Shown here one piece after another: positions 11,036 to 52,779 of a stretch of 64,000 nucleotides of DNA (positions within the stretch are counted from its first letter, which is position 1; each line of letters begins with the position of its first letter). The stretch is taken from assembly GCF_001654455.1 (NCBI RefSeq), contig NZ_CP015772.1:4774001-4838000 (forward strand), read 5' to 3'. This DNA comes from Niabella ginsenosidivorans (GTDB lineage Bacteria > Bacteroidota > Bacteroidia > Chitinophagales > Chitinophagaceae). A program made the position numbers and the translations under genes. The notes below the pieces were generated by a model. The model had not been told where the DNA came from. It made no database searches and was given only the letters and a program-made list of their open reading frames with translations.

Positions 11036-11436
11036 GCCGTTGCAGCATTGCTATCCTCATCAGTTGCTAACTGATGCACTCCAGTTTCCATGAAGCCGAT
11101 CCAGGGATGCCAGTAAGCCTCATCAACGGGCACCGGTGCCTCATTTGCAAAAAGCGCCTCTTCTTTGTCAATAACGGTTTTGTATAAAATATGGCCCGGC
11201 CCCAGGGGCGAGAATGTTGATTTAATCCGGTGAAGCAATCGTTTTATTTCATCCACATTTTTTACATGCACGGCCTCTTTAAGTTCACGGCAATCATCTG
11301 CCCACTGGCTTTTTATTTCTGCCAGGATATCACTTATTGCATCTTTATCCGCCCCCAACAGGTCTTTCAGGTAGTTGAGATTGTTATAAGAGGACTCTGA
11401 ATTATTGAGAAAGGATTCTGTCATTATAGCTAGCAT
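11032..11436 (-). CDS. Hpt-domain phosphotransfer protein
   Basis: The 134-residue helical protein contains LLHRIKSTFSPLGPG, which matches the Hpt motif (AHxLKGSSxxLG) with the phospho-accepting His followed by Arg-Ile-Lys-Ser. Upstream are helices typical of the four-helix Hpt bundle. Such proteins relay phosphate between hybrid kinases and response regulators. It lies 79 bases downstream of a LytTR response regulator on the same strand, but no sensor kinase is nearby. The start could be 11436 or the Met 4 codons in. The 3' end overlaps mtgA tail to tail. Confidence 0.75.
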   Translation of the reverse strand: MLAIMTESFLNNSESSYNNLNYLKDLLGADKDAISDILAEIKSQWADDCRELKEAVHVKNVDEIKRLLHRIKSTFSPLGPGHILYKTVIDKEEALFANEAPVPVDEAYWHPWIGFMETGVHQLATDEDSNAATA

Positions 11437-11515
11437 TTTAGTTGCTTTATATTAATTAAAGAGGGTTCAATGTACAGGAAGGATGCGTTCCCTCCTCATT
11501 TTTTTGGCTTTCCGC

Positions 11516-12229
11516 TTACAAAAGATGCAGCTTTGCCAGCAGTGCGTCTTTATAACTTTCTGAAACAGGTATTGGTTGATTTTTTATATATACCAGCCGG
11601 TCTTCAATATACTCCACTTTATCTATGGCTATTATATAGCTCCGGTGTACCCTTATGAACTGATCTGAAGAAAATTTATCTTCAATTGCTTTCAGGCTGC
11701 CGTGTACCATATAGGACCTATCCGGTAATTTAAACTGCACATAATCGCCCTTTGCCTCCATCCATAAAATATCGTCCAGGTTCACTTTCCGGATTACCTT
11801 GTTTTCCTTTATAAAGAGCTGCTTTGGAGTGACCGTATTGGTTTGCGGAGATTGCTTGAAACGGATCAGTTCCTGCGCTTTGTCCAGTGCCGTTATTACC
11901 CTTGTCAGCGTAAACGGCTTTACCAGGTAGTCTACCACGTTTAATTCAAATGCTTCAACGGCATAATTCTCTTTTGCCGTAGTCAGAATAGTATGCGGCC
12001 TGTTGGTGAGTAAACGCAACAGTTCCAGCCCGCTCATTTCCGGCATTTCTACATCTAAAAATAAAACATCCACCGGGTTCTCATCCAGGAACGCTTTTGC
12101 TTCCAGTGCATTCCCGCACTCACCAACAACAGTTACGGCATTAATATTCTGAAGGATTTTTCTTAACGTGACGCGTGCCACTTTGTTATCATCAACCAGC
12201 AAACATGTAAGAGGGCCCTTCCTGTTCAT
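11516..12229 (-). CDS. LytTR-family response regulator
   Basis: From the ATG at 12229 the protein has 237 residues: a receiver domain (acidic DD at 13-14, phospho-acceptor Asp59 in LFLDVEMPEMSG, conserved Lys104 in YLVKPF) and a C-terminal LytTR DNA-binding domain (about 135-237: VNLDDILWMEAKGDYVQFKL, then FIRVHRSYIIAIDKV). LytTR regulators bind direct repeats and often control surface or cell-wall functions. The frame is open 22 codons upstream, but those residues do not fit a receiver domain. The partner kinase is not in the window; the adjacent Hpt gene is a candidate relay component. Confidence 0.9.
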   Translation of the reverse strand: MNRKGPLTCLLVDDNKVARVTLRKILQNINAVTVVGECGNALEAKAFLDENPVDVLFLDVEMPEMSGLELLRLLTNRPHTILTTAKENYAVEAFELNVVDYLVKPFTLTRVITALDKAQELIRFKQSPQTNTVTPKQLFIKENKVIRKVNLDDILWMEAKGDYVQFKLPDRSYMVHGSLKAIEDKFSSDQFIRVHRSYIIAIDKVEYIEDRLVYIKNQPIPVSESYKDALLAKLHLL

Positions 12230-12570
12230 TTCCAAAATGTTACCTAAAATTAAGGATTTTTTGCAATATGAAAAAACCAAGCTCTGTAAAAACATACATT
12301 TATTGCGGCGCAGGCCATTACAGCAGGGGAATGAGGCTGCCCCAAAAGACAGAAGTCATCATATCGCCCTGCAGCTTTGGAAAATTTTAATGGAATTTGC
12401 CGGTTCTTCCTGCTATTGCAGGATTCGCCCGAAACGATGACTTTTGATATCGTTTCTTCCGTTTCTAATATTGATCCAATAGTAGAGTTAGTTCCGCACT
12501 ACAACGGCTACCGGCAAATAAAAAGCTGCCCGGAGGCAGCTTAAGATCATATATCCAAAGGATAATGTTA
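12230..12570. other. Intergenic region between the LytTR gene and atpA
   Basis: The region lies upstream of the minus-strand LytTR gene and downstream of minus-strand atpA. It contains the atpA terminator (12514-12542). I see no coding sequence, tRNA or clear promoter motif in the remainder. Confidence 0.5.
12514..12542 (-). terminator. atpA: Rho-independent terminator of atpA
   Basis: An 8-base-pair stem (12523-12530 with 12535-12542, AAGCTGCC/GGCAGCTT) with a 4-base loop is followed on the minus strand by a T-rich run (TTTTTATTT). It lies about 28 bases past the atpA stop, in the right orientation to end the transcript. Confidence 0.8.
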
Positions 12571-14151
12571 TTATTTCTTGTACTGAGGGATGATGCTGTT
12601 GGACAGTTCCACCATTTTTTTCAGCCCTTCTTCGGGGAGGTTCCCTTTTTTGAATTCAGCCAGAACATCGGGGTATTTATTTTCCATTTCCAGCAGGAAA
12701 TGCTCTTCAAACTCCTTTACCTTATTTACAGGAACGTCTTTGATCAGCCCGTTGGTGCCCAGGTAAATAATGGCAACCTGTTTTTCTACGGGATAAGGAG
12801 AGTATTGTGCCTGTTTCAGGATCTCCACGTTACGCGCCCCTTTGTCAATTACGTTCTTGGTTGCAGCATCAAGGTCTCCGCCAAACTTGGAAAAAGCTTC
12901 CAGCTCACGGTAAAGCGCCTGGTCCAGCTTTAAGGTACCGGCCACTTTCTTCATGGATTTGATCTGTGCATTACCTCCTACACGGCTTACGGAAATACCT
13001 ACGTTAATAGCGGGGCGGATGCCGGAAAGGAATAAGGATGATTCCAGGAAGATCTGTCCGTCTGTGATAGAGATTACATTGGTGGGGATATATGCTGATA
13101 CGTCACCGGCCTGGGTTTCAATAATGGGTAAAGCTGTTAAGGAACCGCCACCTTTTACAAGGTGTTTAATGGAATCCGGAAGATCATTCATATTCTTAAC
13201 AATCTCATCATTGCTGATCACTTTGGCGGCTCTTTCCAGCAAACGGCTGTGCAGGTAGAACACATCACCCGGATACGCTTCGCGGCCCGGGGGACGGCGT
13301 AACAGCAGCGAAACTTCACGATACGCTACGGCCTGCTTTGAAAGGTCATCATAAATGATCAGTGCAGGACGGCCTGTATCACGGAAATACTCGCCAATAG
13401 CAGCACCCGCAAACGGAGCGTAGAACTGCAAAGGAGCCGGATCAGAAGCAGAAGCTGCAACAATGGTGGTATAATCCATTGCGCCATTGTCTTCCAGGGT
13501 TTTCATCACTCCTGCAATGGTAGAGGCTTTTTGCCCAATGGCGACATAGATACAATAAACCGGCTGACCGGCTTTAAAAAATTCTTTCTGGTTAATAATG
13601 GTATCAATGGCAATGGCTGTTTTACCGGTCTGGCGGTCGCCAATGATCAGTTCCCGCTGGCCGCGGCCGATCGGGATCATGGCATCAATCGCTTTAATAC
13701 CGGTTTGCAGCGGTTCTTTTACCGGTTCACGGAAAATTACTCCCGGTGCTTTCCGCTCCAGAGGCATTTCATAAAGCTCTCCGGTAATAGGTCCTTTGCC
13801 ATCAATAGGTTGCCCCAGGGTGTTTACCACACGGCCGGTCATACCTTCACCCACTTTAATGGAAGCGATCTGCTTGGTGCGGCGCACCTTTGAGCCTTCT
13901 TTAATATCTTTTCCTTCACCCATCAGTACCACGCCCACATTATCTTCTTCCAGGTTAAGGGCTATGGCACGAACGCCGTCTTCAAACTCAACCAATTCGC
14001 CATATCTTACATTTCCAAGTCCGTATACACGGGCGATACCATCACCCACCTGTAGTACGGTACCCACTTCCTCCAAATCGGCCTGAGCATTAAAATTGCT
14101 CAACTGCTCCCTAAGAATGGCGCTTATTTCGTCTGGTTTTATTTCCGGCAT
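12571..14151 (-). CDS. atpA: F1Fo ATP synthase subunit alpha
   Basis: The 526-residue protein from ATG 14151 has the normal AtpA length. It contains the N-terminal beta-barrel ([24 protein letters not shown]), the Walker A motif [11 protein letters not shown], the [34 protein letters not shown] region and the C-terminal helical domain. The alpha subunit forms the F1 hexamer with beta and carries regulatory nucleotide sites. No atpH, atpG or other atp gene is adjacent: a terminator follows at once and a good promoter precedes. The open frame upstream of 14151 overlaps that promoter and is not part of the protein. Confidence 0.97.
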
Positions 14152-16137: not shown

Positions 16138-16911
16138 TTACACACAGAGGCGCTTTTTTTCAAAATAATTATAGCTGGCAGCTACCCGCTCCAAACCATT
16201 TTGGGCTGCAGAAGGCGTTTCTATAATGCTGTACAGCATCCCGGCCTGTTCTTTTTGCCGGAACACAGCAGGAAAGTCTACTATCCCGTCACCGGCATTT
16301 ACAGGTTGTCCGCCGGCATCCACATCTCTTAAATGCCATAAAGGAAAACGTCCCGGGTATCTTTGGATAAAGGCATCCGGATCATGACCGGCCTGCACGA
16401 CCCATCCCAGATCCAGTTCAAAAACGACCAGCTCCGGGTCTGTATGGCTTAACAATGTATCAAAAGGCAAGGTGCCGTTGACTGCCTCAAATTCAAAATG
16501 GTGATTATGGTATCCTAACTGTATCCCCGCTTTTTTTGCAATACGGCCCAGTTTATTATATGTTTCCGCTATTTCTTTATAGGAATCTACCGTTCGCCGT
16601 TCGTCGGGGAACATAGAGCAGATGATGTATTTTATCCGGAGAGCGGCACCGTCTTCCAGTAATAGCTCAATAGTATCAGAAGCAGCGTTAGCATGTAAAC
16701 TGATGAGGTCCAAGCCAAGCGCATCGGCTCTCCTCTTCAGGAGCCCGGGCTTTACACCCAGCACCGTACGGGCCTCCGGGCTATAACCGGCAGCTTCCGC
16801 ATAGCTAAAGCCTTTACAGGCGAGGGCCTGCAATGTACCTTCAAAATCGGTTGCCAGGTCATTCTTTACGGACCAGAGCTGAACGCCTATTGCTTCTTTT
16901 TTATACGTCAT
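16138..16911 (-). CDS. Sugar phosphate isomerase/epimerase (xylose isomerase-like TIM barrel)
   Basis: The protein is 257 residues from ATG 16911; an alternative ATG at 16965 would overlap the upstream gene by 22 bases. Features of the AP endonuclease 2/xylose isomerase-like barrel are visible: GVQLWSVKNDL, the metal-ligand region GYHNHHFEF, VFELDLGWVVQAG, and WHLRDVDAGGQ near the C terminus. Such enzymes isomerise or epimerise sugars and ketosugars. It follows the Gfo/Idh gene closely, a common pairing in sugar catabolism through keto intermediates. Confidence 0.82.
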   Translation of the reverse strand: MTYKKEAIGVQLWSVKNDLATDFEGTLQALACKGFSYAEAAGYSPEARTVLGVKPGLLKRRADALGLDLISLHANAASDTIELLLEDGAALRIKYIICSMFPDERRTVDSYKEIAETYNKLGRIAKKAGIQLGYHNHHFEFEAVNGTLPFDTLLSHTDPELVVFELDLGWVVQAGHDPDAFIQRYPGRFPLWHLRDVDAGGQPVNAGDGIVDFPAVFRQKEQAGMLYSIIETPSAAQNGLERVAASYNYFEKKRLCV

Positions 16912-16943
16912 ATTTTGCAGGATAAAATGAATGCTCACGGGTT

Positions 16944-18221
16944 TCAGAACTTCCTGAAATCCCATTCACCACGATAGGGCCGGCTGCGCATCTGGTTGGC
17001 AGATTCATTGTCAAAAGCTTCTTTAACAGGATCCCATTTCAGCTTCTTTTGCAGCTCGTAAGCAATGTTCACCGCGTTGCAAACAGTAGCGGTGCGGTGC
17101 CCGGTTTCCACATCACAAATCGGCCTGGAACGTTTTTTTATAGCGTCCACCCAATCCTGGTAATGGTTATCACTGAAGTATAACCGCCTGTCGCTTGTTT
17201 TAAATTTCAGTTGCGCCAGGTTTTCGGGTTGTGTCCTTAAAAAGCTGCGGCTTACTTCTATTTTCCCTTTATCGCCAATAAACTGAATGGAGTTGCCCTC
17301 ACCCCAGTTCTTATGATTTACCTTAATGCCGTTGGCATACATAAAGGACAGTCCTTCTTTTGCACCGGGCCCTTCAGGCGGAATAAATGTTACGGGGCCG
17401 GAATTGTCCATGCCCAGCGCCCATTGCACAATATCAAACATATGGGCACCCCAGTCGGTAATATACCCGCCGCCAAATCCCGCATAACCGCGCCACCAGG
17501 CCCATTCTTTTGCATCAACAGGCGGTGCCAGTATAGCGTTATATCCCCTGTAAAAGGAAGGCCCGATCCAAAGATCCCAGTCAATATAATCCGGGGTAGG
17601 CTCTGTAGGCAGGTCACATTGCTTTACCGGCTCACCAACGGAAACATTGATCTCTGTGATCTTACCGATATATCCATTTGTTACCAGTTCAGCCGCCTGC
17701 CGGAAATTATAGGAAGAGCGCTGCATGCTCCCGGTCTGGAAAACACGTTTGTACTTACGCGTGGCATTTACCATAGCACGGCCTTCGGCAATGGTCAACG
17801 CCAATGGTTTTTCGCAATAAATATCCTTACCGGCTTTTGCAGCATCAATAGCTATCTGCGCATGCCAGTGATCCGGAGTAGCAATAACCACGGCATCAAT
17901 ATCTTTCCGTTCCAGCAGTTCCCGGTAATGTTTGTAGCCTTTTATTTCCGTTTTTACTTTTTTTTCATTTGCCTTTTGGGCAAGGCCGGTAAAGTAATCC
18001 AGCTTTTTTGCATCCACATCGCAGGCGGCAAGCACTAATGTTTCCTTAGGACCGTTAATAGCATTAACAAGATGATGGGATTGTTTTCCCAAACCAATAT
18101 AACCGAGCTGGACACGATCACTTGGGGCCAGGTGCCCCTTGCCACCCAGAACAGAACGGGGCACAATGGTAAACGCCAGGGCGCCCATGGCAGTTTGCTG
18201 AATAAATCTTTTTCTTTTCAT
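16944..18221 (-). CDS. Gfo/Idh/MocA family oxidoreductase, exported
   Basis: The 425-residue protein begins with MKRKRFIQQTAMGALAFTIVPRSVLG, a Tat/Sec-like export signal. The Rossmann motif GYIGLGKQSHH follows at about residue 38, then DVDAKK, VIATPDHWHAQ and the signature CEKPLALTIAEG. A C-terminal domain of the GFO_IDH type includes WGAHMFDIVQWALG. The enzyme is an NAD(P)-dependent sugar dehydrogenase, probably periplasmic; such proteins oxidise glycosides to 3-keto forms. It is divergent from the first susC gene with operator-bearing DNA between. Confidence 0.88.
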   Translation of the reverse strand: MKRKRFIQQTAMGALAFTIVPRSVLGGKGHLAPSDRVQLGYIGLGKQSHHLVNAINGPKETLVLAACDVDAKKLDYFTGLAQKANEKKVKTEIKGYKHYRELLERKDIDAVVIATPDHWHAQIAIDAAKAGKDIYCEKPLALTIAEGRAMVNATRKYKRVFQTGSMQRSSYNFRQAAELVTNGYIGKITEINVSVGEPVKQCDLPTEPTPDYIDWDLWIGPSFYRGYNAILAPPVDAKEWAWWRGYAGFGGGYITDWGAHMFDIVQWALGMDNSGPVTFIPPEGPGAKEGLSFMYANGIKVNHKNWGEGNSIQFIGDKGKIEVSRSFLRTQPENLAQLKFKTSDRRLYFSDNHYQDWVDAIKKRSRPICDVETGHRTATVCNAVNIAYELQKKLKWDPVKEAFDNESANQMRSRPYRGEWDFRKF

Positions 18222-18807: not shown

Positions 18808-21800
18808 ATGCTTCTGAAACATTTCCGCAACATAACACTTGCTGTTATCGGCTTCTGTATGGCTCACCCGCTTTATGCCCAGCATAGAGTATTTACCGGC
18901 AAAGTGCTGGATGCTGCAGACAGTAGCCCCCTGAGTGGTGTATCTGTAACTATTAAAGGCACGGAACAGGGTGTTACAACTAAAAAGGACGGCTCGTTCT
19001 CTATCAAAACGGCGGTTGCGGCTCCTTTGCTGGTTGTTTCTTACGTGGGATATAGTCAAAAGGAAACTGCAGCCACCGATTCCTTTCTTACCATTTACCT
19101 GGAGAAGACCACCAGTGAAATGAACGAAGTAGTGGTAACCGCCCTGGGGGTAAAGCGGCAAAAGGCTTCTCTCGGATATGCGGTCAGTGAAGTGAACGGA
19201 AAAGACCTTACACAGGCGCGGGAAGTAAATGTGCTCAACTCGCTGGAAGGAAAGGTAGCCGGGGTAAATGTAAGCGGTATAGCGGGTGGTCCGGGCGCTT
19301 CATCCAATGTCATTATCCGGGGTATTTCCAGCCTTACCCAAACCAATCAGCCCCTGTATGTTATTAATGGCATTCCGGTTGAAAGTCAGCCTAATTCTTC
19401 AGACGGAAGCCAGTACTCCAACGTTCCGGATCTGGGCGATGCCATGAGCAATATTAATCCGGATGATATTGAAACGATCTCTGTGCTAAAGGGTGCCGCA
19501 GCCTCCGCCTTATATGGCTACCGCGCAAAGGCAGGCGTTATTTTAATCACTACCAAAACAGCCAAATCGAACAGCATAGAGCTGAACTCCAATTACGTGG
19601 CAGAAAAGGTGGTGGACTTGACAGACTGGCAATATGTTTACGGGCAGGGCGCCAATAACCTGAAGCCCACTTCACAACTGGTAGCCTTCCAGTCTGGTCA
19701 GTCCAGCTGGGGCGGCAAGCTGGATGGCAGCCCTGTTGTGCAGTTTGATGGTGGTGTACGGCCTTATGTAGCCCAGAAGAACAATCTCCAGAACTTTTAC
19801 AGGACCGGGGGCACTTTTACCAATACCCTTGCATTGAACCGGACTTTTGAGGGAGGCGCTATACGTTTTTCGGCCAGTGATCTTACCAGCCGGTCTATTG
19901 TTCCCAACAGCGGTATCAACCGCCAGACATTTGACCTGTCTGCCAATTATAATCTGACGCCAAGATTTCTTGCAGATGTGCATGCCAATTACATCCTTGA
20001 GCAGGCAAAGAACCGGCCCCTGCTCAGTGATCCGTCCGGGAACTCCAATTATAATGTCATGTTTTTACCCACCAGCGTAGATGTGCGGACGCTTGAAAAA
20101 GCCACCAATCCTGATGGGTCCGAACTGGCTTATTCCCCGTCTGTAAACGCCACCAACCCCTGGTTTGCCGCCGAAAAGTTTATTAACAATACAGAGCGCA
20201 ACCGGTTCATTTCCTCCGTACGGCTTCGTTATACGTTTGATAACGGGGTTTTCCTACAGGGCCGCGCAGGCATAGATAATTATAACGACCATTATTTATC
20301 CGTTGTTCCCACAGGCACAGCTTACAGGCCCAAAGGCTCTATGTCTGAATATAACACCAGCTACAAGGATCTGAACGCAGATCTTCTTGCCGGAAAAGAT
20401 TTTAAGCTCTCCCCCGACCTGACCATAACGCCTAACCTGGGCGCCAGCTACCGCCGTACAAAATCGGCCGAATATGAAAATCATGGGGAAACGTTCCAGA
20501 TTCCCTTTGTATATAATATCCTGAACACATCTGTAAAAACGGTCTATTACCTTCCCTCTGACCAGGAAGTGCAAAGCGTGTACGGCACCCTGGATCTTGC
20601 CTATAAAAATTACCTGTACCTGACCGGTTCCGGAAGAAACGACTGGTTCTCTACACTGGCTACACCGGGAACCAATAATAAAGTCGGCGTTTTTTACCCT
20701 TCTGTAAGCGGCTCTTTTATATTTTCCGAGCTGCTGAAGCCCAACGAATGGTTCAGCTACGGAAAACTAAGGGCTGGCTATGCAGAAGTAGGACAGGCTA
20801 CCGCTCCTTACCAGACGCAGCTCAGCTACATCTTTGCCGGCACCACCTTTAACGGGCTGCCGCAGGGCCTCATCAATAACTCAGACATTCCCAACTCTTC
20901 CTTAAAACCTTCACTGGCAAAGGAACTGGAGATCGGAACCGAGCTTGGATTTTTTCACAACCGTCTGAACCTGGATCTGAGTTGGTACAACAAAAAATCA
21001 TCCAATGAAATCCTGAGCGCACCGGCTTCCATTGCTTCCGGTTATGGAGGCGCTGTTTTAAATATCGGCCAGTTGCAAAACAAAGGCTGGGAACTTCTAT
21101 TATCCGGTACGCCGGTAAAGGGGAGCAGTTTTACCTGGAAAACAGCCCTGAACGGTTCCGTAAATAATAACAAGGTGCTTGCCCTGGCTAACAATCAGTC
21201 TTCACTGGCCGTTGGTACCTCCAGCACTGCTGTTGGATTCATTCAGCAGATCGTTGGGTTACCCGCCAACCAGATCATGGCATATGATTACAAATATGAC
21301 GATGCCGGCAATATTATAAAGACCGCCAGCGGCGTACCGGCCAGAGGGTTGCTGAAGCCTTATGGATCTGCCTATGCCAAATGGATGGCCGGTTTCAGCA
21401 ATGATCTTTACTATAAACATTTTCACCTGTCCTTTCTTATTGACGGGAAGTTTGGCGGCAAACTGTTTTCAGGAACCGATTACCGCGGATATACATTTGG
21501 CTTGTCCAAGGCAACGCTGGTAAACCGCGAAGGCACTTTTGGCAATAACCTGGATGCCGCTACCTATTACAGTACTCTGGCATCCAATGTTTCAAAATTA
21601 TTTGTAGAAGATGCCGGTTTTATAAAATTCAGATCGGTGGTGCTGGAATACACGTTCCCCTCCGGACTGTTTGGAAAGGGCATTAAAGGCGCTTCTCTCA
21701 GCATTGTGGGCCGAAATCTGTTTTACCTGATGCGCAAAACAGAAAATGTGGACCCCGAATCGAGCTTTTCTCCTACCGCGTATGGGCTTGAGCTGGGCGG

Positions 21801-21849
21801 TGTGCCCTCCACGCGCACATTTGGCGCCAACCTGAATTTAAAATTTTAA
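18808..21849 (+). CDS. SusC-like TonB-dependent outer-membrane transporter (first locus)
   Basis: The 1013-residue protein has a signal peptide ending at YAQ, a carboxypeptidase-regulatory-like beta domain (VFTGKVLDAADSSPLSGVSVTIKG), a connector with EVVVTALGVKRQ, and the plug domain (GVNVSGIAGGPGASSNVIIRG, PLYVINGIPVE, VLKGAAASALYG, GVILITTK). The rest is the 22-strand barrel. SusC proteins import glycan oligomers across the outer membrane using TonB energy and a SusD lid. The susD partner starts 23 bases downstream. Upstream operator copies suggest repression by the DeoR protein encoded at 26823-27596. Confidence 0.93.
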   Translation: MLLKHFRNITLAVIGFCMAHPLYAQHRVFTGKVLDAADSSPLSGVSVTIKGTEQGVTTKKDGSFSIKTAVAAPLLVVSYVGYSQKETAATDSFLTIYLEKTTSEMNEVVVTALGVKRQKASLGYAVSEVNGKDLTQAREVNVLNSLEGKVAGVNVSGIAGGPGASSNVIIRGISSLTQTNQPLYVINGIPVESQPNSSDGSQYSNVPDLGDAMSNINPDDIETISVLKGAAASALYGYRAKAGVILITTKTAKSNSIELNSNYVAEKVVDLTDWQYVYGQGANNLKPTSQLVAFQSGQSSWGGKLDGSPVVQFDGGVRPYVAQKNNLQNFYRTGGTFTNTLALNRTFEGGAIRFSASDLTSRSIVPNSGINRQTFDLSANYNLTPRFLADVHANYILEQAKNRPLLSDPSGNSNYNVMFLPTSVDVRTLEKATNPDGSELAYSPSVNATNPWFAAEKFINNTERNRFISSVRLRYTFDNGVFLQGRAGIDNYNDHYLSVVPTGTAYRPKGSMSEYNTSYKDLNADLLAGKDFKLSPDLTITPNLGASYRRTKSAEYENHGETFQIPFVYNILNTSVKTVYYLPSDQEVQSVYGTLDLAYKNYLYLTGSGRNDWFSTLATPGTNNKVGVFYPSVSGSFIFSELLKPNEWFSYGKLRAGYAEVGQATAPYQTQLSYIFAGTTFNGLPQGLINNSDIPNSSLKPSLAKELEIGTELGFFHNRLNLDLSWYNKKSSNEILSAPASIASGYGGAVLNIGQLQNKGWELLLSGTPVKGSSFTWKTALNGSVNNNKVLALANNQSSLAVGTSSTAVGFIQQIVGLPANQIMAYDYKYDDAGNIIKTASGVPARGLLKPYGSAYAKWMAGFSNDLYYKHFHLSFLIDGKFGGKLFSGTDYRGYTFGLSKATLVNREGTFGNNLDAATYYSTLASNVSKLFVEDAGFIKFRSVVLEYTFPSGLFGKGIKGASLSIVGRNLFYLMRKTENVDPESSFSPTAYGLELGGVPSTRTFGANLNLKF

Positions 21850-21872: not shown

Positions 21873-23462
21873 ATGAAAAAATCAGCTTTATATATTATTT
21901 CTGCTTCCGTGCTTTTTTTACAGGCCGCCTGCACAAAAAATTTCGACAGGATCAATACTAACCCGGCTACTTACAATGAGCAGAATTTTGACCCAAACTA
22001 CCTGCTTACGACCGCTCAGGTAGCTTATACCGGCAGCTACGACTTTGCCTATGACACCTGGCGCGCCAATCTTATTTACTGTTCCGGCATGATACAGGGC
22101 TTTGCAACCGTGCTGTCCTACTGGGGCGGAGATAAGTATACGCTGAACGAAGGATATACGGCTGCCTACTGGGGGTTCAGCGGCGATGGCGCATATTCCG
22201 AACAATTAAAACCTATTGCGGATATTCTGCAAACAACAAAAGACAAGCCCCAATACAAAAATCTTTACCAGATTGCGCACATTATGCGCTCCTTGATTGT
22301 TGAGCGCATTACGGATCTTTACGGCGATTGCCCCTATTCAGAAGCCGGTTTGGGTTATTATGATAAAAATTATTTTCCGAAATACGACAAACAGCAGGAT
22401 ATTTACAAGGGTATGCTGCAGGAAGTAAGTGATGCTGTTGCTGCGCTGGATTCATCGGCAGACAAGCCTTCCGGCGATGTTATTTACAATGGCGATATTG
22501 AAAAATGGAAACGGTTTGGCAATACCCTTATTTTGAGGATGGCAATGCGGCTTACAAAAGCAGACCCTGCAACCGCAAAAACCTGGGTACAGAAAGTTGT
22601 GGGAAAAACAATGACCGATAATACAGATAATGCATTCATCAACGGGGATGAAACCGGTGGTTTGTCTACCATTAACCGCAACAGCCTGGTGCTGCTGGGC
22701 GATGGCGGCCAGGAGCCCTATTATGTAAAATGGTCCAACACCTTCATCAATTTCCTGAAATCCAACAATGATCCGCGCCTTGGTAAAATAGCCGTGATCC
22801 GGTTATATACGGACGCAAACAGTACCACACAAAATCCCGGCTATAGCGCAGACCCTTCCAAACAAAAAGGAATGCCCAACGGAAAAGACCTGAGCGGTAT
22901 TGCCGGAAGAGATATTTCCACAGACCCTTCTTATACGGGTATGCCGGATTATTCTTCCCCACATCCGGGCATGATCAAAAATAACGGCCCTACCTTCCTT
23001 TTAATTTATCCTGAAGCGGAACTGCTTTGGGCAGAAGCAGCACAACGTTTTGGCATTGGAGGCAGTGCCGCAACCCATTACAATAACGGGGTTACCGCGG
23101 CCATGACCTATCTGGCGCAATATGATCCAAAATTAACGATCAGCGTTTCCGATGCCGGCACTTACCTGGCGGCGCATCCGTATAATGCCGGCCAGGGACT
23201 GCAGATGATCAATACGCAATACTGGGCATTAACCAACACTATGCTGGATTTTTATGAATCATGGTCAAACTGGAGAAGAAGCGGCTACCCGCAATTAACA
23301 CCGGTAAATGCGCCCAATAACGCAACAAACGGACAGATACCGAGGCGGTTCCCTTATCCCCTGGCAGAATCCAATGTGAACCCATCCAATTATCAGGCGG
23401 CTTCCGATGCCGTTCCCGGGGGCGACAATTTACTGGGACGCGTATGGTGGGACGCACAATAA
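21873..23462 (+). CDS. SusD/RagB-like outer-membrane lipoprotein (first locus)
   Basis: The 529-residue protein has a lipoprotein signal (LFLQAAC, Cys20) and is alpha-helical with TPR-like features of the SusD-like type 2 group: INTNPATYNEQNFDPNYLL near the N terminus, RSLIVERITDLYGDCPYSEA, and LLIYPEAELLWAEAAQRFG, followed by FYESWSNWRRSGYPQLTP. SusD proteins bind oligosaccharides on the cell surface and cap the SusC barrel. It lies between its susC partner and the GH9-type hydrolase gene (30-base gap), as expected for a polysaccharide-utilisation operon. Confidence 0.93.
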   Translation: MKKSALYIISASVLFLQAACTKNFDRINTNPATYNEQNFDPNYLLTTAQVAYTGSYDFAYDTWRANLIYCSGMIQGFATVLSYWGGDKYTLNEGYTAAYWGFSGDGAYSEQLKPIADILQTTKDKPQYKNLYQIAHIMRSLIVERITDLYGDCPYSEAGLGYYDKNYFPKYDKQQDIYKGMLQEVSDAVAALDSSADKPSGDVIYNGDIEKWKRFGNTLILRMAMRLTKADPATAKTWVQKVVGKTMTDNTDNAFINGDETGGLSTINRNSLVLLGDGGQEPYYVKWSNTFINFLKSNNDPRLGKIAVIRLYTDANSTTQNPGYSADPSKQKGMPNGKDLSGIAGRDISTDPSYTGMPDYSSPHPGMIKNNGPTFLLIYPEAELLWAEAAQRFGIGGSAATHYNNGVTAAMTYLAQYDPKLTISVSDAGTYLAAHPYNAGQGLQMINTQYWALTNTMLDFYESWSNWRRSGYPQLTPVNAPNNATNGQIPRRFPYPLAESNVNPSNYQAASDAVPGGDNLLGRVWWDAQ

Positions 23463-23492: not shown

Positions 23493-25997
23493 ATGTATTT
23501 TTGGAGATCATTTTTTCTTTTTATTTTATTATTTCCCGGCATGGCAATAAAAACATTTGCCGCCGATGAGTGGATCCGCATCAATCAGCTGGGATATATT
23601 CCCAAAGGTATCAAGGTTGCAGTGTGGGCCTCAAAGAACAATGCTATACCCAAAAACTTTCAATTGGTCAGTACACAAACCGGTTCGGTGATTTTTTCGG
23701 GTGTTACAGGCGCGCCTTTTGGTGCTTACGGCCCTTTTTCCCAAACCCTGCGGTTGAATTTTTCCGCATTCCATACACCCGGCACCTATTATCTTACCTG
23801 CGGAAATGCCCGGTCGCCTGTCTTTACCATTGGCGATGATGTATATGCAGGGATCGCCGATTTCGGGCTGCGCTACTTAAGACAGCAGCGGAGCGGATTC
23901 AATCCCTTTTTAAAAGACAGTTGTCACACGCACGATGGTTATACCATGTATGGCCCGATGCCGGATACCACCCGCATTAATGTATGGGGCGGCTGGCATG
24001 ATGCAACAGATTACCTGCAGTATGTGACCACTTCTGCAAATGCTACTTTTCACCTGCTGTCCGCCTACAGGGATTTTCCCGGGATCTTTACGGATCATTA
24101 CCAGGCAAACGGACTGGAAGGCAGCAACGGCATGGCAGATGTATTAGACGAAGCCAAATGGGGGCTTGACTGGCTGCTGAAAATGCATCCCCGTAAAGAC
24201 TGGATGTTTAATCAACTGGCGGATGACCGCGACCATCATGGTTTCCGCCTGCCTGATGAAGATTCTGTGGACTATGGCGTGGGCCCCGGGCTGGGGCGGC
24301 CTGTTTACTTTGCCACCGGAAAACCCCAGGGTTTGGGAAAATACAAAAACCGGACAACCGGCGTTGCTTCTACCGCCGGTAAGTTCAGCAGCGTCTTTGC
24401 TTTGGCCGCCATCATTTATCAAAACAATCCTTCCCTGGCTTCCCTGTTTAAAGAGCGGTCCCTGTCTGCTTATGAAATGGGGCTTGCAAAACCCGGTGCC
24501 TGCCAGACAGCGCCCAACCGGGAACCTTATTTCTATGAGGAGGATAACTGGACAGACGATATGGAGCTGGCTGCCGCAGAGCTTTACAGCCTCACCGGAG
24601 AAAAAAGCTATTATACACAATCGATCCGGTATAGCAAAGAGGAAAAAGTAACGCCCTGGATGGGGCAGGATACCGCCCGTCATTACCAATGGTACCCTTT
24701 CCACAATTTCGGACATTATGAGCTGGCCAAAGAAGCAGCGGCACCGGAAAACAAAACGATAACCAGCTATTACAAAGAAGGCATTGAGCGGGTATGGAAC
24801 AAAGCCAGGAAAAACGCTTTTTACCGGGGTGTTCCCTTTATCTGGTGCTCCAACAACCTCAACACGTCTTTTGCCATACAATGTTACCTGTATAGGCAAC
24901 TGAGCGGAGATAACCGGTTTGATGAGCTGGCCCAGGCCTGCTTTGACTGGCTCTTTGGATGCAACCCATGGGGAACGGGCATGGTGTATGGATTACCGGC
25001 AGGTGGTGATACGCCCGCCGATCCGCACTCCTCATTTTCCCAGCTGAAGCATTATCCCCTTGATGGGGGCATGGTCGACGGTCCTGTATACGGCAGCATC
25101 TTCAAAAACCTCAGGGGATTAAAATTGATGCATGAGGATCCCTATGCCGCTTTTCAATCGGATTATGTGGTGTATCATGATGATTCCGGCGATTACAGCA
25201 CCAATGAGCCTACAACAGACGGAACCGCCTCGCTGGTGTACCTGATGGCCGCAAAGGAAGCGGAAGCCCGTAACCTTTCAGGGAATAATACCGTTACGGC
25301 TTATGGAGGGATCATAAGAGGAGACACGACTAAAAAAAATATTGCGCTGGTTTTTACCGGGGATGAATTTGGAGACGGCATTTACTCCATTGCCCGAACC
25401 CTGCAAACAAGAAAGATCCATGCCTCTTTTTTCCTCACCGGTAATTTTTACCGGAACCCTTCTTTTAAAAAAGGCATACAACTGCTGCAAAAGGACAGTA
25501 ACTACCTGGGCTCGCATTCAGACCGGCATCCCTTGTATTGCGACTGGACCAACCGGGACAGCCTGCTGATCTCGCGCAGGCAGTTTTTGAACGATTTAAC
25601 AGCAGCTTACCAGGAACTGAAACAATGGAACATTACCCCCAAGGAGGCTCCTTATTTTTTACCGGCCTATGAATGGTACAATGATTCGATTGCCGCATGG
25701 ACAAAAGACTTTGGTTTACAGCTGGTCAACTTTACACCGGGTACGCGGAGCAATGCAGATTATACTTTTCCCAAAATGGGAGAAAAATATGTGCCCGGTG
25801 ACACCATTTATAACAGCATCCTTCATTATGAAAAAAAAAGCCCTTCCGGGTTAAACGGTTTTATACTGCTGCTGCATATTGGTACTGACCCGGACCGTAC
25901 GGATAAATTCTATGACCGCCTGCCCCAACTCATTGACGCACTCAGAGAAAAAGGCTACCGGTTCCTGCGGATCGATCAGCTGTTGAAGGAGCAATGA
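23493..25997 (+). CDS. GH9 glycoside hydrolase fused to NodB-like polysaccharide deacetylase
   Basis: The 834-residue protein has a signal peptide (cut near FAAD, 24), a CelD-type Ig-like domain (25-112), a GH9 (alpha/alpha)6 barrel (about 118-595) and a C-terminal NodB-like domain (about 612-832). GH9 catalytic features are GGWHDATDY (Asp170, Asp173) and YHDDSGDYSTNEPTTDG (acid Glu572). The NodB part has Asp624 in FTGDEFGDG, His675 and His679 in HSDRH, and His795 in LLLHIGTDP, enough for metal binding, although the usual TFDDGP and RxPY motifs are altered. An attractive inference is N-deacetylation coupled to exo-glucosaminidase action on GlcNAc-containing oligomers; GH9 cellulase activity is the alternative. 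Confidence 0.85.
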   Translation: MYFWRSFFLFILLFPGMAIKTFAADEWIRINQLGYIPKGIKVAVWASKNNAIPKNFQLVSTQTGSVIFSGVTGAPFGAYGPFSQTLRLNFSAFHTPGTYYLTCGNARSPVFTIGDDVYAGIADFGLRYLRQQRSGFNPFLKDSCHTHDGYTMYGPMPDTTRINVWGGWHDATDYLQYVTTSANATFHLLSAYRDFPGIFTDHYQANGLEGSNGMADVLDEAKWGLDWLLKMHPRKDWMFNQLADDRDHHGFRLPDEDSVDYGVGPGLGRPVYFATGKPQGLGKYKNRTTGVASTAGKFSSVFALAAIIYQNNPSLASLFKERSLSAYEMGLAKPGACQTAPNREPYFYEEDNWTDDMELAAAELYSLTGEKSYYTQSIRYSKEEKVTPWMGQDTARHYQWYPFHNFGHYELAKEAAAPENKTITSYYKEGIERVWNKARKNAFYRGVPFIWCSNNLNTSFAIQCYLYRQLSGDNRFDELAQACFDWLFGCNPWGTGMVYGLPAGGDTPADPHSSFSQLKHYPLDGGMVDGPVYGSIFKNLRGLKLMHEDPYAAFQSDYVVYHDDSGDYSTNEPTTDGTASLVYLMAAKEAEARNLSGNNTVTAYGGIIRGDTTKKNIALVFTGDEFGDGIYSIARTLQTRKIHASFFLTGNFYRNPSFKKGIQLLQKDSNYLGSHSDRHPLYCDWTNRDSLLISRRQFLNDLTAAYQELKQWNITPKEAPYFLPAYEWYNDSIAAWTKDFGLQLVNFTPGTRSNADYTFPKMGEKYVPGDTIYNSILHYEKKSPSGLNGFILLLHIGTDPDRTDKFYDRLPQLIDALREKGYRFLRIDQLLKEQ

Positions 25998-26060: not shown

Positions 26061-26828
26061 ATGAAAAAAATATTCCTTTTTATAGCAACCGGTTTTTTAA
26101 TGATGGCCGCCAGCGGGCAGGTAAAGCTGCCGGCGGCTTATCTTAAAGACAGCTTTCCCGTATTGGTCAGTCATTGCAAAGCTGTTCTGGATAAGGCATA
26201 CATGGCGCAGAAGCTGATAGCAACAACGGATACCTTACCCGGCTGGGAGGGTTTTCCGGTAAAGCTGTATCAATATAAAACAGGCAATGACCTGTATACC
26301 GGTCAGCCCAAGACAGGGATGGTCTATTTGCTGAATCCTTCTCCTCAAAAGCTGGCGCTGTGGATCGCCACGGCCTGCTGGATCGCCAAAGGGTCAGTGG
26401 CCGGCCGCTATACAGATTCCCTGCTTGCGTGGATCAACAGGCAATCCAATGCCCAGTTTCCGGTAAAAGGCGTGGTTTATGAAGATCAGTATACAAATGA
26501 CTTCCAGGAGCCTTATGTTTTCAAGGATGGAGTTACGGTGTATGTAAAAGACAGTACGATGTTCCCAAAAGACAAGACCTGTACACCGGAGCAACTGGCA
26601 TTTTACCTGCGGTTAACCAATGATGACCTGAAACCGCAAACGGGGCAATATGCCCGTATTGCAAGCACCCGGCGCGAAGATTATATTGCTAACGGGGGCA
26701 CAGAAGCTGTAGGCGATGCCGGCAACCGGAAAATAAAATGGCTGGATGTAGTACGTGATCTTTATAAAAAAGCCTGGAACTCCGATGAAAATGAACTCAT
26801 CATTTTCTGGGCAAAAGATCACTTATAA
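26061..26828 (+). CDS. Secreted protein of unknown function in the GH9 operon
   Basis: I do not recognise this 255-residue protein. It starts at ATG 26061 with a clear signal peptide (MKKIFLFIATGFLMMAASG, then Q). The frame is open 20 codons further upstream, but those residues lack signal-peptide character. The mature part is of mixed charge, with aromatic-rich segments such as LPGWEGFPVKLYQYKTGNDLY and KLALWIATACWIAKG, and no membrane segment after the signal. It lies 63 bases after the GH9 gene and ends 6 bases inside the convergent DeoR gene. It probably acts in the periplasm on the same substrate; an enzyme or binding role cannot be told apart. Confidence 0.7.
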   Translation: MKKIFLFIATGFLMMAASGQVKLPAAYLKDSFPVLVSHCKAVLDKAYMAQKLIATTDTLPGWEGFPVKLYQYKTGNDLYTGQPKTGMVYLLNPSPQKLALWIATACWIAKGSVAGRYTDSLLAWINRQSNAQFPVKGVVYEDQYTNDFQEPYVFKDGVTVYVKDSTMFPKDKTCTPEQLAFYLRLTNDDLKPQTGQYARIASTRREDYIANGGTEAVGDAGNRKIKWLDVVRDLYKKAWNSDENELIIFWAKDHL

Positions 26829-27596
26829 CACGATCATATTCTTTTTATAGGGGATCAGCTTTTTATCGGAAGGTTTTAACTCGGTGATCAGGTAATCGAT
26901 CTGCTGCGGGCTGCAGATCTTCATATTGAATGTAGAGTTCAGCTTTTCTGAAATAGTGATCACGGCCAGCCTGTCGCAGCACGCGATCATTGCCTTCTTT
27001 ACCTGGGCCACGTTCCATTCCCTTTCCGTAAGACCGGTTTTGGCATTTAAAGCATTGACTCCAAAAATGCACAGGTCTGCCTTTATCTGGTTCAGCTCAT
27101 AAACAGGCTTTTCGCCAAGGGTGATCTGGGAAGACATATCCATCTGGCCACCAATCAGGATCACTTTCAGCAATGAATATTCTGCCAGGTGCAGTGCCAT
27201 TAAAGGGCTTACTGTAAAGAAAGTAGCTTCCAGCTTTTCCGGGAGCAGGCGCACCAGCTCCAGCATCGTAGTGCCCGCCTCAATCAGGATCGTCATGCCC
27301 GGTTTTATTAATTCGACCGTTTTTTTTGCGATGATCTTTTTCTCTTCCTGCGCATAGACCTTTGTTTGCTGCACCGGGTAGTGGTACGACTTGGAAAGCG
27401 CCCCTCCATGCACTTTTATAATGTCACCGGCTTCTGCCAGTTCGGCAAGATCCCTGCGGATGGTATCTTCAGAAACATTCAGCTCCTCGCTCAGCGAAGA
27501 GGACAGCACTTTATTATGCAGGTTGATCTGCCTTAAAATATACGCCTGACGTTCATTTTTAAACATACCGCCGCTGGGTTGTTCCATATCTGTCAT
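26823..27596 (-). CDS. DeoR/GlpR family transcriptional repressor
   Basis: The 257-residue protein has the DeoR winged helix (residues about 13-70: RQAYILRQINLHNKVLSSSLSEELNVSEDTIRRDLAELAEAGDIIKVHGGAL) and a C-terminal sugar-phosphate sensor of the ribose-5-phosphate isomerase-like fold, with IEAGTTMLELVRLLP and FGVNALNAKTGLTEREWNVAQVKKAMI. DeoR repressors of the AgaR/GlpR type release DNA on binding a phosphosugar. The gene sits between the SusCD/GH9 operon and the divergent ROK operon, and both have GCGTTTTTATGC in their promoters. Its 3' end overlaps the convergent gene by 6 bases. Confidence 0.92.
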   Translation of the reverse strand: MTDMEQPSGGMFKNERQAYILRQINLHNKVLSSSLSEELNVSEDTIRRDLAELAEAGDIIKVHGGALSKSYHYPVQQTKVYAQEEKKIIAKKTVELIKPGMTILIEAGTTMLELVRLLPEKLEATFFTVSPLMALHLAEYSLLKVILIGGQMDMSSQITLGEKPVYELNQIKADLCIFGVNALNAKTGLTEREWNVAQVKKAMIACCDRLAVITISEKLNSTFNMKICSPQQIDYLITELKPSDKKLIPYKKNMIVL

Positions 27597-27929: not shown

Positions 27930-28895
27930 ATGGCAGTAATCGGATTGGATTTAGGCGGCACCAAATTAGCGGTTGCTTTATTTACTGAAGAAGGCAGCCT
28001 GCTTTACAAAGAGCGTGTGCCTTTAACGCTTTTGCAGGGCGAAGCAACAGGAGCACTGATCGCCGACCGGATCACAGCATTAAAGAACAGGTTTCCGGAA
28101 ACAGCCATTACCGGTGCCGGCATTTGCGTGCCGGGCATTTATTATGCAAAAACAGGTAATGTGTGGTGCCCGAACATCAAGGGCTGGGAGAATTACCCAC
28201 TTGGAAAGCGGCTTTCAGAAGCCTGTGGGGCTATGCCCATTGTCATTGACAGTGATCGCGCCTGTTATATTCTGGGAGAAGCCTGGAAAGGAACAGCAAA
28301 GGGATGCAACAATGCCATTTATTTATCTGTAGGCACCGGTATCGGTGCCGGTATCTTATCCGGAGGAGCTGTTGTAAGAGGCCAGCATGATATTGCCGGG
28401 GCCATTGGCTGGATGGCCTTAGCCCAACCCTTTCAGCTTCCTTTTAAACAATATGGCTGCTTCGAGCATTCCGCCTCCGGGGAAGGCATTGCCCGTTATA
28501 CCCGTGAGCTCCTGGATACGATGAACGATTACAACGGACTGTTGAGAGCCATTGATGCAGAACGTTTAAAAGCACAGCATGTTTTTGAAGCATTTGAACA
28601 GAAGGATGTGCTGGCAACAGCCGTGATCCGCCACTGTGTGCAGTTTTGGGGAATGGCGGCTGCCAACCTTGTAAGTCTTTTTGACCCGGAAAAGATCATT
28701 TTCGGTGGAGGTGTTTTTGGGCCTGCCCAAAAGCTGATCCCTGACATACGGGAAGAAGCAGCAAAATGGGCACAGCCGGTCAGCATGCCATCTGTGTTAT
28801 TCGTACCCGGCAGCCTTGGTGCTGACGCAGGGCTATACGGAGCGGCATCACTGGTATTACAAAAAGCCATTCCGTACCCCAACCATGATCAATAA
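27930..28895 (+). CDS. ROK family sugar kinase lacking the zinc motif
   Basis: The 321-residue protein has the ROK ATP-binding DLGGTKLAVALF (residues 6-17), a catalytic-Asp region IDSDRACYILGEAW and LSVGTGIGAGILSGGAVVRGQHDIAGAIGW. ROK enzymes phosphorylate glucose, GlcNAc, ManNAc or fructose. The usual Cys3-His zinc motif is absent: the His after GEIG is Trp here, and only one Cys (QYGCFEH) is left. It heads an operon with an MFS permease (11-base overlap), a SIS protein and a GNAT enzyme. Given the context, an amino sugar is the likely substrate; it could also serve GlcNAc or ManNAc from the sialic locus. Confidence 0.88.
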   Translation: MAVIGLDLGGTKLAVALFTEEGSLLYKERVPLTLLQGEATGALIADRITALKNRFPETAITGAGICVPGIYYAKTGNVWCPNIKGWENYPLGKRLSEACGAMPIVIDSDRACYILGEAWKGTAKGCNNAIYLSVGTGIGAGILSGGAVVRGQHDIAGAIGWMALAQPFQLPFKQYGCFEHSASGEGIARYTRELLDTMNDYNGLLRAIDAERLKAQHVFEAFEQKDVLATAVIRHCVQFWGMAAANLVSLFDPEKIIFGGGVFGPAQKLIPDIREEAAKWAQPVSMPSVLFVPGSLGADAGLYGAASLVLQKAIPYPNHDQ

Positions 28896-30033
28896 GCAAC
28901 TTCTTTTCAGCGCAGCCTGTGCCGGCATGCTCTTTTTTGGCGTTTGCCTGATAACGCTGGGCTCCGTTGTACCGGATTTAAAAGTTACCTACGGGCTCAA
29001 TGATCTTGAGGCCGGGGCTTTATTTTCAATCTTACCTTTTGGCGTACTGGCCGGTTCACTGATTTTTGGCCCTGTTTGCGACAGGTACGGTTATAAATTT
29101 CTACTAAGCATTGCCTGCATCTGTATGGCCATAGGGCTTGAAGGGATCGCTTTTGCGCCTACGCTGCTTGTTTTAAACAGCTGCGTGTTCCTCTTCGGGG
29201 CCGGAGGCGGGGCTATCAATGGCGCTACAAATGCACTGGTAGCGGATATCAGCCATACCAATAAGGGAGCCAATCTGAGCCTGCTGGGCGTTTTCTTTGG
29301 TATAGGAGCGCTGGGCATGCCTTTTATCCTTGGCCTTTTACAACATCATTTTAATTATACGGTCATCTGCGCGGTTGCAGGAATTACCTGTTTTTTATTA
29401 GGTATCTGTTATGCGCTGCTTACTTTTCCAGAGCCTAAGCAACAACCCAACGGAACCGGTACCAAAAGCAGCTTTCTGCTAAAAGAATCTTTTTTATGGC
29501 TTATATCGTTCTTTCTTTTTTTCCAAAGCAGTTTTGAAGCCATTATCAATAACTGGACCACCTCCTATCTTTCTTCCCGGTTCAAATTTGAAAAAGAAAC
29601 AAGCCTGTTTGCTTTATCCCTTTTTGTAACCGGCATGGCAGTGATGCGTTTACTATTGGGCAGCTTTTTCAGAACAGCCAAAAAAGTACACCTGTTCCCC
29701 CTTCTGTTCGGGTTGGTTGCATCAGGTCTTCTGTTTCTTACATTCGGCAACAGCTTCTTTACCGCTGCATCCGGCCTAATTCTTACAGGAGCAGGACTGG
29801 CAGGCGGGTTTCCTTTTATGCTGGGCTATCTGGGAAGCCGCTATGCAGCTGCATCCGGCACAGCGTTCAGTATTGCACTGACCATTGCCCTTACCGGCAA
29901 TATTCTTATCAACTCCATTACAGGCATCATTATCCAGTACTACGGTATCCGGCATTTAACGACTATTGCCTGTACAGAGCTCGCCTTTATGATCTTCCTT
30001 TATTTTTTTATAATTAAACAACTCAAATCTTAA
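28885..30033 (+). CDS. MFS family permease, probable sugar transporter
   Basis: From ATG 28885, overlapping the ROK stop by 11 bases, the protein has 382 residues and about 12 membrane segments. GPVCDRYGYKF between TM2 and TM3 is the MFS motif A, and FGAGGGAINGATNALVADI resembles the FucP/GlcNAc-permease-like group. It should carry a sugar across the inner membrane by proton symport. The coupling to the ROK gene suggests it delivers that kinase's substrate. The longer open frame to 28816 would lie inside the ROK gene and is rejected. Confidence 0.85.
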   Translation: MINKQLLFSAACAGMLFFGVCLITLGSVVPDLKVTYGLNDLEAGALFSILPFGVLAGSLIFGPVCDRYGYKFLLSIACICMAIGLEGIAFAPTLLVLNSCVFLFGAGGGAINGATNALVADISHTNKGANLSLLGVFFGIGALGMPFILGLLQHHFNYTVICAVAGITCFLLGICYALLTFPEPKQQPNGTGTKSSFLLKESFLWLISFFLFFQSSFEAIINNWTTSYLSSRFKFEKETSLFALSLFVTGMAVMRLLLGSFFRTAKKVHLFPLLFGLVASGLLFLTFGNSFFTAASGLILTGAGLAGGFPFMLGYLGSRYAAASGTAFSIALTIALTGNILINSITGIIIQYYGIRHLTTIACTELAFMIFLYFFIIKQLKS

Positions 30034-30036
30034 GTT

Positions 30037-30798
30037 ATGTTAGCAACACAATGGTTGAATAATGTGCGGTCCATTATGACAAAAATTGAAGAAACACAAA
30101 TGGATTTTATAAAAAAGGCGGCAACCGTAATGGCCGATTCTATTGAGTGTGGCCGGTGGGTGCATACGTTTGGCTGCGGGCATGCAACATTACCTATTGA
30201 AGAAATGTACCCGCGCATTGGCGGCTTTGTAGGGTTTCATCCCATGGTGGAGCTGCCCCTTACCTTTTTTACAAACATAACAGGGCAGATGGGGGTGCAC
30301 CAGTTCATTTTTTTAGAGCGTGTGGAAGGCTATGGTGTTGAAATTATGAAAGGCTATAATTTTGACAAACGGGATACGATGTGGCTGTTCTCTCACTCCG
30401 GTATCAATAATGTAAATATTGATATTGCGCTGGAATCCAAAAAGCGTGGCATGCAGGTAGTGGTATTTGGCTCCGCTGCTGCCGCAAAGGGAAAACAGAC
30501 CCGTCATTCCAGCAGGAAAACGATTTTTGACATCGCTGACATTGTAGTAGATACCTGTGCGCCTATTGAAGACGCTTCTGTGCCTGTAAAAAACCATATT
30601 GACAAAATAGGTCCTGTATCTACTATGGCTTTTGTAACCTGTGTGTGGATGACGGTGACCACCGTTGCCGAGATCCTGGCCGACAGGGGCGTGCAATTGT
30701 TTATTCACCCTTCACATAATGCCCCCGGAGCTCAAGACGCTAAAATACGGCTGGATGCCGCTTTGGATGAGTATAAAAGAAGGATCACCGGTGTTTAA
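30037..30798 (+). CDS. SIS-domain sugar isomerase family protein (UPF0309-like)
   Basis: The 253-residue protein has an N-terminal helix pair (IMTKIEETQMDFIKKAATVMADSI) and a SIS phosphosugar-binding fold: VHTFGCGHATLPIEEMYPRIGG, TMWLFSHSGINNVNIDIALESKKRGMQVVVFGS and the C-terminal VNTTVAEILADRGV-like helix. It resembles the sugar isomerase domain proteins of the UPF0309 group. SIS proteins bind and isomerise phosphosugars, for instance in amino-sugar or N-acetylmuramate-phosphate catabolism. It starts 3 bases after the permease stop, so it belongs to the ROK operon and probably handles the phosphorylated product. Confidence 0.85.
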   Translation: MLATQWLNNVRSIMTKIEETQMDFIKKAATVMADSIECGRWVHTFGCGHATLPIEEMYPRIGGFVGFHPMVELPLTFFTNITGQMGVHQFIFLERVEGYGVEIMKGYNFDKRDTMWLFSHSGINNVNIDIALESKKRGMQVVVFGSAAAAKGKQTRHSSRKTIFDIADIVVDTCAPIEDASVPVKNHIDKIGPVSTMAFVTCVWMTVTTVAEILADRGVQLFIHPSHNAPGAQDAKIRLDAALDEYKRRITGV

Positions 30799-43387: not shown

Positions 43388-43389
43388 AT

Positions 43390-43857: not shown

Positions 43858-43859
43858 AA

Positions 43860-46658: not shown

Positions 46659-46664
46659 ATTCTG

Positions 46665-48755: not shown

Positions 48756-48766
48756 TTATTCAATAG

Positions 48767-50329: not shown

Positions 50330-50346
50330 AATCTTTTTTTTAAATT

Positions 50347-51633: not shown

Positions 51634-51636
51634 AAT

Positions 51637-52776: not shown

Positions 52777-52779
52777 TGA

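Follow-up and report, generated by a model that had tools for sequence, protein, structure and literature searches.

A GH9 hydrolase fused to a NodB-like domain in Niabella ginsenosidivorans: a candidate enzyme of peptidoglycan salvage

The GH9-NodB locus and its fusion protein

The stretch of N. ginsenosidivorans DNA analysed here (64,000 nucleotides of contig NZ_CP015772.1, in the following the window) contains a PUL in which a SusC/SusD pair lies directly upstream of a CAZyme gene encoding a GH9 hydrolase fused to a NodB-like domain. The operon continues with the gene of a small secreted protein and is followed by an oppositely oriented regulator gene and a ROK-MFS-SIS gene group (Table 1).

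Table 1. Genes of the GH9-NodB locus in the window
Feature	Position	Strand	Remarks
SusC-like TonB-dependent transporter	18808..21849	+	Plug, CarboxypepD_reg
SusD-like lipoprotein	21873..23462	+	SusD-like_2, PF12771; upstream of the GH9-NodB gene
GH9-NodB fusion protein	23493..25997	+	ATG start, 834 aa; signal-peptide-like N-terminus ~1-24, CelD_N Ig 25-107, GH9 118-584, NodB-like ~605-834
Small secreted protein	26061..26828	+	255 aa, no family
DeoR-family regulator	26823..27596	-	
ROK-family sugar kinase	27930..28895	+	
MFS transporter	28885..30033	+	
SIS_2 sugar-phosphate isomerase/etherase-like protein	30037..30798	+	NF002805 above cut-off

The initial annotation described a single secreted protein combining a CelD Ig-like, a GH9 and a NodB-like domain, and Pfam bears out all three, with matches to CelD_N (E 5e-22), Glyco_hydro_9 (E 1e-70; 239.8 bits against a cut-off of 27.7) and, at residues 610-744, Polysacc_deac_1 (E 8e-9; 35.9 bits against a cut-off of 23.1). 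The N-terminus is hydrophobic and signal-peptide-like. The active-site residues named in that annotation are present and invariant in 52 aligned homologues, namely D170, D173 and E572 in the GH9 domain and H675, H679 (the MT2 HxxxH motif) and H795 (the MT5 His) in the NodB-like domain, and D756 (the MT4 Asp) is invariant as well. An AlphaFold2 model of the full-length protein based on the 52 homologues (pLDDT 87, pTM 0.78) contains confident blocks in both domains, with low confidence in the loop 171-175 around the two catalytic Asp residues.

Much of the window gene set recurs in the loci of relatives (numbered with an L), namely in L125 from the same genus and in L126, L115 and L038. Relatives of the window DeoR protein (53-65% identical) are found both in AnmK-MurQ-symporter and in GH9-ROK-MFS-SIS clusters. 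The NCBIfam matches of the ROK protein are to GlcNAc/ManNAc kinases and all fall below cut-off. The SIS_2 protein is about 20% identical to MurQ, and its E72 aligns with the Glu of the DASE motif in MurQ; with this low identity and a single aligned Glu we do not treat it as a MurQ orthologue. MurQ, AnmK, NamZ and GHL10 are absent from the vicinity of the window GH9-NodB gene and are all encoded elsewhere in the genome, MurQ at 1.26 Mb; the window locus itself has only the SIS_2 protein. For a 279-aa protein encoded before MurQ in the same genome (L128) no identity was found. Among the loci examined, the 255-aa secreted protein occurs only beside GH9-NodB genes (window, L125, L126, L038). Examples of conserved stretches in it are QFPVKGVVYEDQY and FKDGVTVY; it matches no family, and its structure model was uninformative (pLDDT 46).

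Three further gene groups of the window, all on the reverse strand, may be mentioned. Divergent from the SusC gene lie genes for a Gfo/Idh/MocA oxidoreductase (BT_2158-like, below cut-off) and a xylose-isomerase-like TIM barrel protein (16138-18221). Positions 41199-45176 encode an M19 dipeptidase, a D-hydroxyaspartate/threonine aldolase-like protein, RidA and a GntP permease. In L125 the M19 dipeptidase and aldolase-like genes come straight after the SIS gene, and this group could be part of the same salvage region, perhaps for D-amino acids. Finally, a sialic-acid-type cluster (45471-53700) comprises genes for a GlcNAc 2-epimerase, a GDSL/SASA esterase, a BNR sialidase, an MFS transporter, a kelch protein and a DHDPS-family lyase.

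Distribution and genomic neighbours of the relatives

A scan of species-level genomes yielded at least 348 relatives, the best 80 of which were fetched as loci. The fusion architecture is kept in these 80 independent loci, which rules out chance or an assembly artefact as its origin. These best 80 come mainly from Bacteroidota and in addition from Ignavibacteria, Marinimicrobia and one Latescibacterota record. Close relatives also include split forms, in which the NodB gene either adjoins that of GH9 or lies at another place in the genome. In L137, L140 and L143 the frame holding GH9 is extended to 1213-1223 aa and also encodes a phosphoesterase-PQQ propeller protein (profiled for L137), and in L140 and L143 a separate NodB gene lies next to this long frame. 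L120 has a fusion of NodB with a Beta-lactamase2 domain, and in L116 a free NodB gene adjoins a Beta-lactamase2 gene. The same Beta-lactamase2 type is present in 13 of the best 80 loci (two clusters of 7 and 6 loci) and is encoded directly upstream of the fused gene wherever neighbours were listed. In L113 a PIG-L type de-N-acetylase of 817 aa (10401-12851) follows straight after a split GH9/NodB pair.

The family is genomically linked to MurNAc and murein genes. Neighbours were counted in 111 genomes of one related family, which is not that of the window, and 36 of these genomes carry GH9(-NodB). In 19 of the 36, MurQ (TIGR00274, above cut-off) is encoded on the same strand no more than 12 kb away, as compared to 0.25 expected under random placement; since the genomes are related, its presence in 6 of 10 genera is the safer figure. 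GHL10, the family to which we take E. coli DigH to belong, is a neighbour in 7 of the 36 (0.32 expected).

The most complete of these loci, L134, has the order SusC-SusD-GHL10-GH9-NodB-phosphoesterase/PQQ-NlpC/P60-epimerase-GH3/PBP4B-Beta-lactamase2-MurQ-SSS, and L133 has the same gene set, with SusC past the fetched end; in both the epimerase is of the L-Ala-D/L-Glu type and the GH3-PBP4B protein is NagZ-like. L131 and L132 read SusC-SusD-DUF4623-GHL10-phosphoesterase/PQQ-GH9-NodB-MurQ-SSS. NamZ, by its Pfam name an exo-muramidase, is present in L135, L143 and L145. In Chitinophaga-type loci the strand that does not carry the fusion gene encodes AnmK and MurQ (both above NCBIfam cut-offs), an SSF symporter and a DeoR regulator that shares about 54% identity with the window protein. 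An NlpC/P60 protein with SH3 is encoded in L041 and L101 along with a protein resembling L-Ala-D/L-Glu epimerases; L041 additionally has a NagZ-like GH3-PBP4B protein. L123 (SusC-SusD-DUF4623-GHL10-GH9-ROK-MFS-DeoR) bridges the two kinds of loci, as GHL10 is here joined to ROK, MFS and DeoR genes of the window type. D-lactate is a by-product of MurQ, and the gene for a D-2-hydroxyacid dehydrogenase near GH9 in L115 may be a hint at it, though a hint only. Many loci, from Pedobacter, Dyadobacter and Emticicia, show no murein neighbours. GH9-NodB is the constant member of all loci by construction, as it was the query, and NamZ, GHL10 and GH3 vary. The DUF4623 proteins encoded after SusD in GHL10-bearing murein loci (L111:1690-3120, L123:4488-5903, L131, L132) are candidate surface glycan-binding proteins.

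A proposed role in peptidoglycan salvage

We consider it likely that GH9-NodB is an exported enzyme of peptidoglycan (murein) salvage, because its relatives adjoin genes for MurQ, AnmK, NamZ, GHL10/DigH-family and NlpC/P60 proteins, L-Ala-D/L-Glu epimerase and NagZ-like proteins. By this context in relatives, peptidoglycan rather than chitin or cellulose is well supported as the substrate class. The amino-sugar context proposed initially is supported, and so is the idea of a hydrolase and a NodB domain acting in cis on one glycan, whereas GlcNAc oligomers of the chitin type are not supported as the substrate, the relatives being found with peptidoglycan genes instead. The Beta-lactamase2 partners of NodB in L120 and L116 and the closeness of this domain to PdaA-type proteins speak for the murein reading as well.

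Beyond the substrate class we infer which bond is cut, in which order the two steps occur, that the deacetylase is active, and what the ROK, MFS and SIS proteins of the window do. The SusC/SusD pair would take up peptide-free or short -GlcNAc-MurNAc- glycan fragments. By the inverting chemistry of GH9, with D170/D173 as the base and E572 as the acid, the GH9 domain would cut either the backbone at its beta-1,4 bonds or the GlcNAc-MurNAc disaccharide. The NodB-like domain would act on an amino group of this same glycan, most likely by removing the N-acetyl group of a GlcNAc or MurNAc residue, be it ahead of the cut or following it. Released amino sugars would be imported by the MFS transporter in the window, or by a Na+ symporter in relatives, phosphorylated by a kinase (ROK in the window) and converted to GlcNAc-6-P by the SIS-domain enzyme, which is MurQ in relatives. 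Where a locus is devoid of GH3, GH9-NodB would be an obvious candidate to free MurNAc from GlcNAc-MurNAc. Then again, in loci that also contain a NagZ-like GH3 together with NamZ or GHL10 no bond is obviously left for GH9, and the substrates associated with GH9 in other settings are glucans and glucosamine; both points count against the murein reading, as do the many loci devoid of murein neighbours and the absence of MurQ, AnmK, NamZ and GHL10 near the window gene.

Salvage by a symporter and MurQ has a precedent in Bacteroidota, since the T. forsythia operon MurT (sodium symporter)-MurK-MurQ serves MurNAc salvage and shares a Na+ symporter and MurQ with the loci of our relatives (PMC5790795). 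The passages of that report consulted here mention no GH9 or NodB, and the window differs in having MFS, ROK and SIS genes instead.

The two domains and the alternative readings

The NodB fold is indicated by the Polysacc_deac_1 match and a Z of 25.1 to 4m1b. The closest folds are BA0150 (4m1b), the peptidoglycan GlcNAc deacetylase BC1960, BA3943 and PdaA, by sequence PdaA-type proteins are the nearest relatives of solved structure, and the best NCBIfam match, below cut-off, is PdaB. That MT1 and MT3 are altered while His675, His679 and His795 are kept had been noticed initially, and the alignment to PdaA-type structures and the 52 homologues agree. V620-F621-T622-G623 aligns with T-F-D-N of these structures, so that the catalytic base Asp of MT1 (TFDD) is replaced (T622-G623; T/S/A and G/A across the 52 sequences), and the MT3 Arg is L723 (L/I/M). 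The MT1 pattern of the family is T-G/A-D/H-E..D/E. Position 624 is Asp in 29 sequences and His in 22 (51 of 52), as would be expected of a candidate metal ligand; position 625 is mostly Glu, 628 is Asp/Glu and 727 is Glu in all 52. Judged from this alignment, the site appears to be rewired in a conserved way rather than decayed.

B. subtilis SwsB, a muramic-lactam cyclase and not a deacetylase, is without Thr, Asp and Arg at the same three positions, and putting back all three residues yielded deacetylase activity (PMC12444981). Since SwsB has lost these same positions, classical deacetylation by the NodB-like domain cannot be assumed, which counts against a murein-active deacetylase. The deacetylation suggested initially has thus become uncertain: the MT2, MT4 and MT5 residues stand, but the base Asp has been replaced together with its Thr and Arg. 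We regard it as possible, if doubtful, that the substrate class is the same but that the NodB-like domain is a binding module, a pseudoenzyme or a catalyst of SwsB-like amide chemistry on muramic acid. The residues V620, T622 and L723 at the SwsB positions (PMC12444981), the PdaB match and the presence of the pseudoenzyme BA3943 among the close folds would fit such a domain, whereas the invariant MT2, MT4 and MT5 residues and the conservation at 624, 628 and 727 would not. Compared with PdaA, SwsB (PdaB) and BC1960, the closest murein-acting proteins by structure and profile, the window protein keeps the MT2, MT4 and MT5 residues but differs in its T-G-[D/H]-E MT1, its Leu for the MT3 Arg, its fusion to GH9 and its Gram-negative salvage context. 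That it combines the first peptidoglycan-cleaving GH9 with a NodB domain of rewired MT1 (T-G-[D/H]-E) whose chemistry is not classical deacetylation but, say, the opening or closing of muramic lactams in the manner of SwsB, priming muramic residues for GH9, is a long shot.

A hydrolase and a deacetylase acting on denuded glycans are also known from E. coli. DigH cleaves denuded glycans (PMC12288456), and SddA deacetylates GlcNAc in denuded strands, which provides a precedent for the NodB step (PMC12440217). The GHL10 family of DigH is moreover a recurrent neighbour of GH9-NodB; DigH and SddA are, however, separate proteins of other families (GHL10, PF04748) with a septal role. Their action at the septum, and the many orthologues of GH9-NodB in ordinary chromosomal contexts without SusCD, would be consistent with septal or turnover remodelling of the cell's own murein. 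We think this rather unlikely, as many relatives have SusC/SusD, importers and MurQ together in the operon, and in the window, too, the gene comes after SusC/SusD.

The GH9 assignment derives from the Pfam match and from the GH9 fold, and D170/D173 and E572 are predicted to be the catalytic Asp/Asp base pair and the Glu acid. Nearest by sequence are 3x17 (26% identity) and other endoglucanase-type enzymes; Vibrio proteins score close to threshold, and the Vibrio/Photobacterium exo-glucosaminidases are 17-20% identical. Fold comparison gives the same picture, with Z 38.4 to 3x17 as compared to Z 29-30 to the exo-beta-D-glucosaminidases 5dgq (PBPRA0520) and 6gdt (VC0615) and to 3h7l, and in a Foldseek search these three were again among the matches but ranked below endoglucanases. 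By sequence and modelled fold the domain is therefore nearer to the endoglucanase type, an exo-glucosaminidase by kinship is not favoured, and the analogy to such enzymes drawn initially is weak.

These exo-glucosaminidases, which we take to belong to the chitin pathway, share the common GH9 fold over model residues 26-600, the N-terminal Ig domain included, and their amino-sugar substrate resembles the one proposed here. A chitin-type route, in which NodB would remove acetyl groups from GlcNAc oligomers and GH9 would be an exo-glucosaminidase as in the Vibrio chitin-disaccharide pathway, could also accommodate the NagA-like genes near GH9 in L115 and L117. It is nevertheless improbable: the domain is closer to endoglucanases, and among the neighbours examined, in the window and in the loci of relatives, no chitinase (GH18/19), GH20 or hexosaminidase partner was recognised, whereas murein-specific genes recur, and we set a chitin locus aside. 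Least probable of all is an ordinary cellulase or hemicellulase with an acetyl-esterase-like partner domain for plant glycans, for although the closest solved enzymes are endoglucanases and the xyloglucanase BoGH9A (3x17, AaCel9A, BoGH9A) and their catalytic Asp/Asp/Glu is kept, the cellulase signature P-H-x-R (PHHR in 3x17) is changed to DPHS[AS][FL] with the Arg missing in 52 of 52 sequences, a NodB domain is added, and the relatives have murein and amino-sugar genes as neighbours.

When GH9 occurs in a PUL of Bacteroidota, it is usually taken for a cellulase. In the open-access literature, to which our search was confined with subscription papers outside its scope, we found no paper on GH9 in peptidoglycan loci or with NamZ or a deacetylase, and according to a large PUL survey, which treats GH9 as cellulase, families that target murein are underrepresented in PULs (PMC6499787). 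Provisionally, we see here families that are each known already but are combined in a new way and probably act on a new substrate. If peptidoglycan salvage is indeed its role, the "cellulase" family GH9 would extend to the bacterial cell wall, widespread GH9-NodB murein loci would explain part of necromass consumption by soil and aquatic Bacteroidota, and many annotations would be corrected. It would also supply a candidate enzyme set for denuded glycan, including the recurrent phosphoesterase-PQQ propeller partner. The latter, a protein of about 615 aa with a calcineurin-type phosphoesterase and a PQQ/BamB-like propeller, is encoded in L131-L138, L140 and L142-L145, is among the most constant GH9 neighbours in murein loci, and is in some fused to GH9 (L137:8514-12179).
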